In this document: in pieces, positions 6,656 to 36,284 of the stretch
Layout: every line of letters starts with the position of its first letter
How positions within the stretch are numbered: the stretch's first letter is position 1
Origin: Candidatus Parcubacteria bacterium
GTDB lineage: Bacteria > Patescibacteriota > Minisyncoccia > JAHIHE01 > JAGLIN01
Direction of reading: 5' to 3'
NCBI GenBank assembly: GCA_023132875.1
Contig: JAGLXN010000009.1
Location: forward strand, 1-39,060
DNA length: 39,060 nt
Notes under the pieces: model-generated
Told to the model about the DNA's origin: nothing
Database searches by the model: none
What the model saw: the letters and a program-made list of their open reading frames with translations, nothing else
Position numbers and translations under genes: made by a program

Positions 6656-7429
6656 TTACTCTCTAATATACACTCTATTCATCGCATCACCTTGTTCTAT
6701 GCTCCTCACAACATCCATCCCTTCAATAACTTTTCCAAAAACAGTATGTTTGCCGTCAAGATGCGGTTGTGGTCTTTCTGTTACAATAAAAAATTGACTG
6801 CCATTTGTATTAGGACCCGAATTTGCCATTGCCAGAGATCCAACTTCCACTTTATGAAAATTTATTTCATCTTCAAAAGAATATCCCGGTCCGCCAGTTC
6901 CGTCATTTGCCGGATTATCATCCTTGCTAAGCGGATCCCCTGTTTGAATCATAAAATTTGAAATTACCCGATGAAATTTTATGCCATCATAAAAATTTTC
7001 ATTAGAAAGTTTTACAAAATTTTCAACAGTTTTTGGCGCGTCACTCGTATATAATTCCAATTTTATGTTGCCTTTATTAGTTTCAATCACTGCAACTTTG
7101 TTGGCTTCATGCTCTTGTGTAGAGCTCTCTTGCGTTTCTTCATTATTTCCGTCCTCCCAGCTAGAATCATCTTGCAAATTATCCGTCGGCTCCATGCTCT
7201 GTGTGGAACCTTCTTGCATATTACCGCTATCATTACTATCTACGCTAATATTACTACTTTCAATATTTTTATTGTTCTTTAAAGCAATATTAACTTGATA
7301 AGCCGCAAAAATAAACACTACCAAAAAAACAATTCCAATTATCATTTTTTTACCTTTTTCTTTTTTATTAAACACTTCCTGTTTTCTCTCCTCTTTCCTT
7401 TGTAATTTTAATAATTTTTTCCTACCCAT
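6656..7429 (-). CDS. membrane-anchored cyclophilin-type peptidyl-prolyl isomerase
   Basis: 257 aa. A basic N-terminus ([14 protein letters not shown]) and one hydrophobic helix at about residues 28-48 anchor the protein; residues about 52-108 are a Ser/Asp/Glu/Gln-rich linker. The cyclophilin domain runs from [20 protein letters not shown] (about 112) to the C-terminus, with the catalytic block [15 protein letters not shown], the [18 protein letters not shown] core and [18 protein letters not shown]. It catalyses proline cis-trans isomerisation and, by topology, acts on the outer face of the membrane on newly exported proteins. The C-terminus is short but all active-site residues are kept. 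The leader has no SD. Confidence 0.93.
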
Positions 7430-12191: not shown

Positions 12192-13961
12192 ATGATCAAT
12201 CAATATATCATAAACAAACTCATCAAAAAATCCTCCGTAAAACAAAGGCTGTCTTCGGAATATCTTTTACGGCTTAAAAGAAAAGCTTCAAAGAAATTTG
12301 GCTTGCCGAATCCGACAAATATTGAAATTTTAGAAACTTGTCGCCAAATGGTAAAAAGTAAGAAAATTAAGCCAAATAAAGAAATTGAAAATCTTCTTGT
12401 CACTAAAAATATCAGAACTCTTTCCGGGGTGGCGGTCGTGGCCGTTTTGACAAAACCATATCACTGTCCAGGAACTTGCGTTTATTGCCCAACAGAAAAA
12501 AATATGCCGAAGAGTTATTTATCAAACGAACCGGCAGTAATGAGGGCAATTTTGACTGATTTTCATCCTTATAAACAAGTAACGGCAAGATTAAAATCAC
12601 TGGAAGCGACTGGGCATAAAACAGACAAAATTGAACTCATTGTTATGGGTGGGACTTTTTCATATCTGCCAAAGCAGTATCAGACTTGGTTTATAAAAGA
12701 ATGTTTTAGGGCATGCAATAATCGTTGGTTCTATAGTCCCGATAGGGCTGTGGAACCTAAATGCAAATTGCACAGAGGTTCCACAGCTATAAATAGACTA
12801 TGGAACCAACGCTTGTCTCAACTCCAAAAAGCAAACGAGAAATCAAAACACAGAATTGTCGGGCTTACTCTTGAAACTCGTCCCGATTATATAAATAAAA
12901 AGGAAATTATCAGAATGAAAAAATTAGGCGCGACGCGGGTTGAACTCGGCGTCCAAAGTATTTATGACGATGTTTTGAAGTTAAACAAACGCGGACATAC
13001 TGTCGCTATAACGATCAAAGCGACAAAATTATTAAAAGAAGCCGGGTTTAAAATAAATTATCATATGATGCCAAATCTTCCCGGATCAAATTATAAAAGA
13101 GATTTAGAAATGTTCAAAGAATTATTTTCTAACCCCGGATTCCAGCCGGATATGCTTAAAATTTATCCATGCGTTGTGGTAAAAAATGCTTCAATTTATA
13201 AATGGTTAAAAACTGGAAAATACAAGCCTTATTCTGATAAAAAACTTATAGAGCTGCTTGCTGAGATAAAAAAAATAATTCCCTATTATGTCCGCATCAC
13301 GCGCCTTATCCGCGATATTCCATCAACAAGCATTATTGCCGGAAATAAAGTTTCTAACTTACGGCAAGTTTTAAAGAAAAAATCAGAAGAAGAAGGCTGG
13401 CAGTGTAAATGCATCAGATGCAGGGAGGTGAGAAATAAGACAACCCTCACCCTACCCCTCTCCCAAAGGGAGAGGGGGTTAAAATTATTCCGTCAAGACT
13501 ATGACGCTTCAAATGGCAAAGAAATATTTTTAAGCTTTGAAGATAAAGAAAGAAAAAATATTTATTCGCTGTTGAGATTAAGGATAAATTCACAAAATTA
13601 TTCCACTACTGTTATTGCGAGGAGTGAAGCAATGCGGCAATCCCAGAATTTAACTCGACTTAACAAACAGGCTCCACACAGAGTATGGAGCCAACATTTA
13701 ATTACCCCCGTTCTCAAAAATGCCGCTATTATCCGCGAAGTGCATACTTACGGACGAATGGTGCCAATAAAATCTAAAAATAAAAAATCGCCTCAGCATA
13801 CGGGACTTGGAAAAAAATTAATCGCCGAAGCGGAAAAAATTACCGCAGAAGAATTCGGCATAAAAAAAATCGCCGTCATTAGCGGTGTTGGCGTGCGGAA
13901 TTATTATCGAAAATTAGGATACAGGCTTGAAAATGAATATATGGTGAAAAAGCTGAAATAA
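12192..13961 (+). CDS. elp3: Elp3-type tRNA U34 radical SAM/acetyltransferase with four in-frame repeat insertions
   Basis: 589 aa. Elp3 uses radical SAM chemistry and acetyl-CoA to put a carboxymethyl group on C5 of the wobble uridine of tRNA. The radical-SAM cluster motif is YHCPGTCVYCP (about residue 92), followed by HPYKQVTARLKSLEATGH, LIVMGGTFSYLP, VGLTLETRPDYI and RVELGVQSIYDDVL. CKCIRCREV and the GKEIFLSFED block precede the C-terminal GNAT domain (REVHTYGRMVPI, QHTGLGKKLIAEAEKI, ISGVGVRNYYRKLGY). The protein is longer than usual because four stretches without family counterpart (about 178-207, 418-430, 473-485 and 493-503) are translated from dispersed DNA repeats, and the frame stays open through all of them. 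The gene is convergent with a Trm9-like methyltransferase gene. It could be functional with loop insertions, or decaying. Confidence 0.95.
   Translation: MINQYIINKLIKKSSVKQRLSSEYLLRLKRKASKKFGLPNPTNIEILETCRQMVKSKKIKPNKEIENLLVTKNIRTLSGVAVVAVLTKPYHCPGTCVYCPTEKNMPKSYLSNEPAVMRAILTDFHPYKQVTARLKSLEATGHKTDKIELIVMGGTFSYLPKQYQTWFIKECFRACNNRWFYSPDRAVEPKCKLHRGSTAINRLWNQRLSQLQKANEKSKHRIVGLTLETRPDYINKKEIIRMKKLGATRVELGVQSIYDDVLKLNKRGHTVAITIKATKLLKEAGFKINYHMMPNLPGSNYKRDLEMFKELFSNPGFQPDMLKIYPCVVVKNASIYKWLKTGKYKPYSDKKLIELLAEIKKIIPYYVRITRLIRDIPSTSIIAGNKVSNLRQVLKKKSEEEGWQCKCIRCREVRNKTTLTLPLSQRERGLKLFRQDYDASNGKEIFLSFEDKERKNIYSLLRLRINSQNYSTTVIARSEAMRQSQNLTRLNKQAPHRVWSQHLITPVLKNAAIIREVHTYGRMVPIKSKNKKSPQHTGLGKKLIAEAEKITAEEFGIKKIAVISGVGVRNYYRKLGYRLENEYMVKKLK
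12723..12811. repeat. family A inverted repeat inside elp3
   Basis: Two 36-nt arms (12723-12758 and 12776-12811) are imperfect reverse complements, starting GTTGGTTCTATAGTCCC and ending with GAACCAAC. It encodes about 30 residues (WFYSPDRAVEPKCK and following) that interrupt the normal Elp3 sequence. A second copy is intergenic at 25242-25353. Confidence 0.9.
13444..13480. repeat. family D GC-rich hairpin inside elp3
   Basis: A perfect 10-bp stem CCCCTCTCCC / GGGAGAGGGG with a 3-nt loop (13455-13477), preceded by CCTCACCCTA. It is translated in frame as TLPLSQRERG. This word type is widespread as a dispersed repeat in bacteria. Confidence 0.85.
13611..13646. repeat. family C repeat (VIARSEAMRQSQ word) inside elp3
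   Basis: GTTATTGCGAGGAGTGAAGC and the following AATGCGGCAATCCC form short ATTGC/GCAAT stems. The peptide VIARSEAMRQSQ is the translation of a repeat known from many bacterial genomes as a false ORF product, here fused in frame into Elp3 ahead of the GNAT core. Confidence 0.8.
13670..13700. repeat. family B repeat, copy 1, inside elp3
   Basis: GGCTCCA ... TGGAGCC inverted repeat followed by AACATTTA. Copies 2 and 3 lie at 33371-33420 and 36126-36175 with the tail AATATTTA. Translated in frame in elp3 as APHRVWSQHL. Confidence 0.85.
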
Positions 13962-25241: not shown

Positions 25242-25353
25242 GTTGGTTCCATAGTCCCGTTAGGGCTGTGGAACCTTTTTGCAAATCGTTATTTTATATT
25301 AATAAGTGCATTTGCATTCAAGTTCCACAGCCTTTCAAGACTATGGAACTAAC
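25242..25353. repeat. family A inverted repeat, intergenic copy
   Basis: Begins GTTGGTTCCATAGTCCCGTT and ends with GGAACTAAC; arms of about 35 nt are imperfect reverse complements. It shares most of its left arm and the internal TGCAAAT word with the copy inside elp3 (12723-12811). Its translation includes WFHSPVRAVEPFCK, matching WFYSPDRAVEPKCK in Elp3. Confidence 0.9.
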
Positions 25354-25359
25354 AATTTT

Positions 25360-33357: not shown

Positions 33358-33370
33358 ATGAATTACAAAA

Positions 33371-33420
33371 GGCTCCACGCTGTCCTGTCCGTCTTAGAAA
33401 GAAGTATGGAGCCAATATTT
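33371..33420. repeat. family B repeat, copy 2
   Basis: GGCTCCACGCTGTCCTGTCC ... TATGGAGCCAATATTTA. It lies 30 nt past the stop of the 810-aa surface protein gene. Copy 3 (36126-36175) lies on the other side of that gene in the same orientation. Confidence 0.9.
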
Positions 33421-33449
33421 AGCAGAGCATAATTAATTTTAAACAACCT

Positions 33450-36036: not shown

Positions 36037-36125
36037 TACAAAAAATTATATAAAACTCTTAATGAATCTGATCGTGAATAAAAACATATTATTCGATTTA
36101 GATAATTCTTCCAAAAACTATAAAA

Positions 36126-36175
36126 GGCTCCACGCAGGCTTGTCCGCCTCGGGCGAAAGCATGGAGCCAATATTT
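36126..36175. repeat. family B repeat, copy 3
   Basis: GGCTCCACGCAGGCTTGTCC ... CATGGAGCCAATATTTA. The ends match copy 2; the centre (GTCCGCCTCGGGCGAAAG) differs and contains a GCC..GGC stem. Confidence 0.9.
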
Positions 36176-36284
36176 ATTTCACATTCTATAATTAATTTTC
36201 CAGCTATCATAAGGCTTAACCTCTCGGCGACAGGAACATAATTTATTGCCCAAAATGTGTTGAGTTAATAAAACACATATATAC

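Follow-up and report, generated by a model that had tools for sequence, protein, structure and literature searches.

Short palindromic repeats in three linkers of Elp3 from a Candidatus Parcubacteria bacterium and its relatives

Palindromic sequences inserted in frame into genes of conserved proteins are known mainly from Rickettsia, where the Rickettsia palindromic elements (RPEs) do not destroy their host genes (PMC2229807). Orthologous Rickettsia genes can hold RPEs of different groups at one place; whether this reflects a hotspot of insertion or a common origin, i.e., an old insert which has diverged, was left undecided (PMC3767692). REPs have also been described inside genes, namely in uvrA of O. 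terrae, uvrB of R. conorii and recB of Xanthomonas, in the last case at about the same site (PMC3733652). For intragenic repeats in Patescibacteria, a search of open-access papers yielded nothing relevant.

The sequence analysed here, called the window, is the whole stretch of 39,060 nucleotides of contig JAGLXN010000009.1 from a very small, uncultured Candidatus Parcubacteria bacterium. Its elp3 gene contains palindromic repeats which keep the reading frame open. What is new is the presence, across genera, of unrelated repeats of recent origin by copying in the same linkers of this one conserved enzyme.

Elp3 and the repeats in its linkers

The open reading frame at 12192-13961 encodes Elp3, the enzyme of tRNA wobble uridine modification. 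Its score against the profile TIGR01211 was 603 bits (family cut-off 350), and the closest PDB structure was that of MinElp3 (6ia8, E 1.5e-135), to which the GNAT region can also be aligned. The AlphaFold model (pLDDT 87.7, pTM 0.85) was paired by Foldseek with human, yeast, archaeal and bacterial Elp3, with E values down to 7e-48. The following features were assigned.

12192-13961, plus strand: elp3, radical-SAM/GNAT tRNA U34 enzyme, 589 aa, intact (TIGR01211, PDB, AlphaFold, Foldseek).
12465-12491, plus strand: CPGTCVYCP, radical-SAM Fe-S motif (C92, C96, C99), intact; cysteines invariant in 44 homologues.
12720-12827, plus strand: linker 1, residues 177-212, within the radical-SAM domain, host of repeat A (alignments; low pLDDT).
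12724-12810, plus strand: repeat A, in linker 1; two REP hairpins with GTTGG heads outward and tails facing, encoding ...RWFYSPDRAVEPKCKLHRGSTAINRLWNQ...
13404-13421, plus strand: CKCIRC, zinc-binding motif in the central linker, with C405, C407 and C410; cysteines invariant in the family, role according to PMC6367351.
13444-13480, plus strand: repeat D, in linker 2, directly after the zinc motif; palindrome at 13455-13477.
13611-13646, plus strand: repeat C (ATTGCGAGGAGTGAAGCAATGCGGCAATC), in linker 3, encoding VIARSEAMRQSQ; a similar element stands in the same linker of the relative G012.
13670-13695, minus strand: repeat B, in linker 3; a single short-loop REP hairpin with its head on the minus strand (palindrome 13670-13692, head extending to 13695).

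The three linkers hold repeat DNA which is in frame and free of stops throughout, as the original prediction had stated for four segments; all four are present in the 589-aa frame. They are not four different repeats, however, since B is a short-loop relative of A within one superfamily; three families occupy four places. Repeat A, a head-out inverted pair, measures 87 nt (29 codons), and only one of its six frames, that of elp3, is without a stop.

In repeat A, pLDDT fell below 50 (residues 181-183 and 185-197); it was about 70 near residues 411-430 (repeat D) and 50-65 over residues 471-500 (repeats C and B). These stretches of low confidence coincide with the inserts, and the remaining fold is confident; structure mapping thus placed the inserts in loops, as had been expected of a functional protein. 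The phmmer alignment to 6ia8 was broken at linkers 1 and 3, and was gapped and poorly conserved at linker 2, which comes after the three zinc-binding cysteines within a central region described as partially disordered (PMC6367351). An identification of linker 3 with the acetyl-CoA blocking loop of Elp3 was rejected by residue numbering, because residues 466-486 of MinElp3 correspond approximately to residues 521-540 of the present protein, downstream of linker 3.

The A/B superfamily and a RAYT transposase

Members of the A/B superfamily are REP-like hairpins with the order GTTGG, YTCCA-loop-TGGARCC and a TGYRA-like tail. They share the hallmark of REPs, i.e., a hairpin of 20-40 nt, a short conserved end motif and tens of copies; the GTAG tag of the canonical REP superfamily is absent, and the head reads GTTG(G). 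The palindromic core occurred 53 times in the 1.13-Mb genome (control with the reversed pattern: 0) and 4-37 times in each of nine relatives; among the family members searched, the two most distant ones had none. Inverted, BIME-like dimers are represented by repeat A itself, by positions 25242-25357 of the window and by a copy in a relative (G002:C85). In a sample of 397 kb of the genome, which included the window and was 83% coding, 32 of 43 pattern matches were intergenic; the numbers within genes are approximate, since genes were called with a simple hexamer ORF finder, and a few of the 11 matches inside ORFs are weak. Outside of elp3, the window contains the following copies.

7188-7213, minus strand: in-frame REP hairpin within an ORF for a peptidyl-prolyl isomerase (6656-7429, minus strand), in its N-terminal linker.
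25242-25357, no strand assigned: intergenic inverted pair of A-type REPs.
33361-33421, no strand assigned: intergenic B-type REP with long loop.
36116-36176, no strand assigned: intergenic B-type REP with long loop.

The claim that A and B recur outside genes is correct for the three intergenic places; the copy at 7188-7213 lies inside the isomerase ORF. This isomerase is probably membrane-anchored, and the REP encodes EGSTQSMEP in its linker.

Types C and D occur in relatives and are scarce in the genome of the window. For C, about three further genome copies were found when up to 3 mismatches were allowed. The only copy of the strict D palindrome (CCCCTCTCCC-AAA-GGGAGAGGGG) in this genome is that of elp3, whereas 5 and 19 copies were present in two more distant relatives; D may therefore be called a widespread type, as was thought originally, whereas the claim of its dispersal in this genome was not upheld. 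A search of the window against Rfam gave no match.

Transposases of the Y1 (IS200-like) type were detected in 10 of 10 family genomes searched. At L080 in the genome of the window, an ORF of 183 aa (PF01797) with HIH and tyrosine motifs is directly flanked on both sides by inverted A/B-type REPs (1397-1420 and 2005-2028). Six REPs surround the RAYT locus of G002, and copies are found near the RAYT loci of G006 and G009. Judging from this gene arrangement, it is likely that the L080 RAYT moves the A/B REPs. A further RAYT-like transposase gene of the same genome (L065:19077-19733, plus strand) itself holds a perfect hairpin with 15-bp arms in frame.

Linker contents and selection in related genomes

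Elp3 was obtained from twelve family genomes including that of the window, the other eleven sequences being 66-81% identical to it. Linkers 1, 2 and 3 of G003 contain GTAGAGACGAGGCAATGCCTCGTCTCTAC, GTAGAGGCAGGTCGCGACCTGCCCCTAC and CCCCCTTTGCGAAAGGGGG, respectively, and the loop-1 palindrome of G003 has well over 10 copies in its own genome. In G001, linker 1 holds a hairpin with 16-bp arms and linker 2 holds CCCCTCCTTTTAAAGGAGGGG; linkers 1 and 2 of G009 are occupied by related repeats, and the loop-2 repeat of G001 as well as the loop-1 repeat of G009 each possess a 100% identical second copy in their own genome. A double hairpin in linker 1 is common to G002 and G004, and linker 3 of G012 carries a C-type repeat. 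The species of the window is placed as sister to G002-G004 (86/88) in the Elp3 tree; their linker contents nonetheless differ. The alignment with related Elp3 proteins thus revealed differing repeats in the same loops and no conserved ancestral segments, in support of the original prediction. Since near-identical copies of the inserts exist elsewhere in the same genomes, independent insertions are favoured over one diverged ancestral insert. The linkers are therefore best described as tolerated landing sites which are refilled by unrelated repeats.

Strict hairpins were also counted in 84 Patescibacterial Elp3 genes, with synonymous shuffling as expectation. The linkers contained 29 hairpins (about 5 expected) and the core 27 (24 expected, i.e., no enrichment); three of the "core" hairpins (L201, L219, L221) resemble repeat insertions in further loops. 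In other Patescibacteria (L171, L193, L198) linker 3 consists largely of perfect hairpins with arms of 16-21 bp, e.g., GGAAGCTTCGCTTCCATGATGGAAGCGAAGCTTCC. A composite element of 67-72 nt, GGAGTTCACTCT...AGGTTAAAACCTGARCTCC, was noted in linkers of Elp3 and MurD (L259, L243, L244, L067); its one stop-free frame reads GVHSxEC...YRLKPEL, and the LRQAQD repeat is sometimes nested at the same spot.

Elp3 is not the only host. In the 397-kb sample, 44 coding hairpins of at least 10 bp were counted, compared with 20 when the codons had been shuffled synonymously once; the intergenic part of the sample (66 kb) held 66 such hairpins. Hosts of in-frame hairpins included MurD, MurC, MurF, ThiI, a threonine synthase-like enzyme, an MFS transporter and a RAYT. 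The pattern of Elp3 is repeated in MurD and ThiI; the MurD alignment showed differing repeats in the same two linkers, the first of which is empty in G001. MurD of the window's genome (L060:10681-12246, minus strand) has a hairpin with 27-bp arms (PPDKEGWG type) in frame and a second one of 13 bp, and MurC nearby (L060:3694-5151) has GAAGGCGACACGTCGACGTGTCGCCTTC in frame. In ThiI (L055:7047-8321, minus strand) a repeat encoding LRQAQDD...VSLSNH is situated between the ferredoxin-like and THUMP domains; in G003 and G012 this linker retains the repeat in shortened form.

For the core of elp3, NG86 estimates of dN/dS were 0.082/1.095 between the window's species and G002, and 0.093/1.299 between it and G009, i.e., ratios of about 0.07-0.08. 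For the linkers, dN was 0.5-2.6 and dS was saturated; with dS near saturation in most pairs, their dN/dS is poorly measured. The one usable case is the insert which G002 and G004 have in common, with 7 synonymous and 12 non-synonymous changes, a dN/dS of about 0.55 versus 0.11 in the core and a dS nearly equal to that of the host (0.269 and 0.295, respectively). A core under strong purifying selection together with a high ratio in the insert indicates that the enzyme is maintained, whereas there is little constraint on the inserts. The notion that elp3 tolerates mobile repeats is in agreement with the core ratio of about 0.07, the intact catalytic motifs and the position of the inserts in low-confidence loops.

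Very probably, then, elp3 is functional, and short palindromic repeats have entered its three flexible linkers time and again, those in frame being near-neutral and the encoded peptides having no sequence-specific function. The cognate RAYT transposase would insert copies of REPs A and B in the form of single-stranded hairpins. Insertions which break the frame or hit the folded core would be lost, and in-frame insertions into linkers, neutral or nearly so, would drift or be replaced; the added peptides would form disordered surface loops. The earlier argument that four neutral insertions are unlikely to stay in frame by chance is weak, since selection removes frame-breaking insertions from a needed gene and retention of the frame is to be expected.

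The hairpins could instead be kept for a role of the DNA or RNA, e.g., in mRNA decay, translation speed or DNA binding, with the peptide as a by-product. The hairpin is the trait common to the unrelated inserts, and REP hairpins are known as RNA elements (PMC3733652). Moreover, an A-type REP with orthologous flanks is present in MurD of G002, G003 and G004 (L243, L244, L245), encoding VQNGSTALRGLW[SN]QHD in all three, and its synonymous sites have changed less than those of the gene: dS of this single insert, with about 16 synonymous sites, was 0-0.067 over the three genomes (gene, 0.16-0.69) and 0.067 between G002 and G003 (gene, 0.685). Neutral drift would not predict this slower change. As the synonymous change is about ten times slower than in the host for the pair G002-G003, coding hairpins may act in the mRNA, or RAYT or gene conversion may rewrite them, and there is a small chance that selection or active homogenisation, acting on the DNA or RNA, preserves some intragenic REPs. 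For Elp3 such a role is improbable, however: many of the species in the set of 84 genes have no hairpin in any linker, the insert of G002 and G004 diverges synonymously at the rate of its host, and the older inserts of G006 and G007 appear decayed.

Still less probable is an exaptation of the repeat-derived peptides which improved Elp3, perhaps in tRNA binding. Such a function would suit linker 2, which adjoins the zinc motif between two domains (PMC6367351), but sister species carry unrelated peptides or none, the inserts are predicted to be disordered and dN of the linkers is high. Misassembly of repeats into elp3 from elsewhere in the metagenome bin could be suspected, as those relatives with named records are represented by draft metagenome bins and the genome of the window consists of 93 contigs; it is hardly credible, given that the frame is kept at every junction, that independent assemblies from different projects behave alike and that the MurD insert is common to three genomes. 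A pseudogene which escaped stops by chance was considered originally, and the four repeat insertions within one gene speak for it, but it can practically be dismissed: the low core dN/dS implies that elp3 is not decaying, the catalytic and zinc cysteines are intact, and a stop-free Elp3 match was found in 11 of 11 high-quality family genomes.

Comparison with described elements

Peptides encoded by repeats, such as IARSEA, LRQAQD and PPDKGGWG, are to be expected in many proteins of these genomes, and may lead to errors in annotation, alignment and the prediction of structures. As linker repeats are unrelated between sisters and near-identical to copies within each genome, the reuse of linkers is directly visible.

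The palindromic elements of Rickettsia and Wolbachia resemble the present repeats as in-frame palindromes in conserved genes, here at surface loops. The likeness to RPEs proposed in the original prediction holds for the way of working and not for membership. The length differs (about 25-90 nt here, 26-87 nt as measured for the present repeats, and about 100-150 bp in RPEs); in addition, many unrelated families are found here, in a Patescibacteria host, and the heads of A and B are GTTG, whereas R. conorii RPEs have a CGTC tag. Enterobacterial RU-1, RU-2 and RU-3 and the Correia/NEMIS MITEs of Neisseria are likewise small mobile elements which form in-frame fusions with other genes (PMC2229807, PMC2759123), but they are longer (103-168 bp), and several have target-site duplications, none of which was noticed here on unsystematic inspection.

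GTAG REPs, BIMEs and RAYTs share with A and B the small hairpin, a conserved motif at one end, the inverted pairs and the mostly intergenic location; the RAYT gene between inverted REP copies corresponds to the REPtron arrangement (PMC3733652), with GTTG replacing GTAG. Patescibacteria, however, are not listed among the GTAG hosts in PMC3733652, and several other repeat families also use the same linkers here. As neither the length of RPEs nor the GTAG tag was found, A and B were filed as a variant REP/RAYT family. New in comparison with these systems are the lineage (Patescibacteria), the GTTG-tagged REP/RAYT pair and clear evidence for an independent reuse of the same loops by unrelated repeats.
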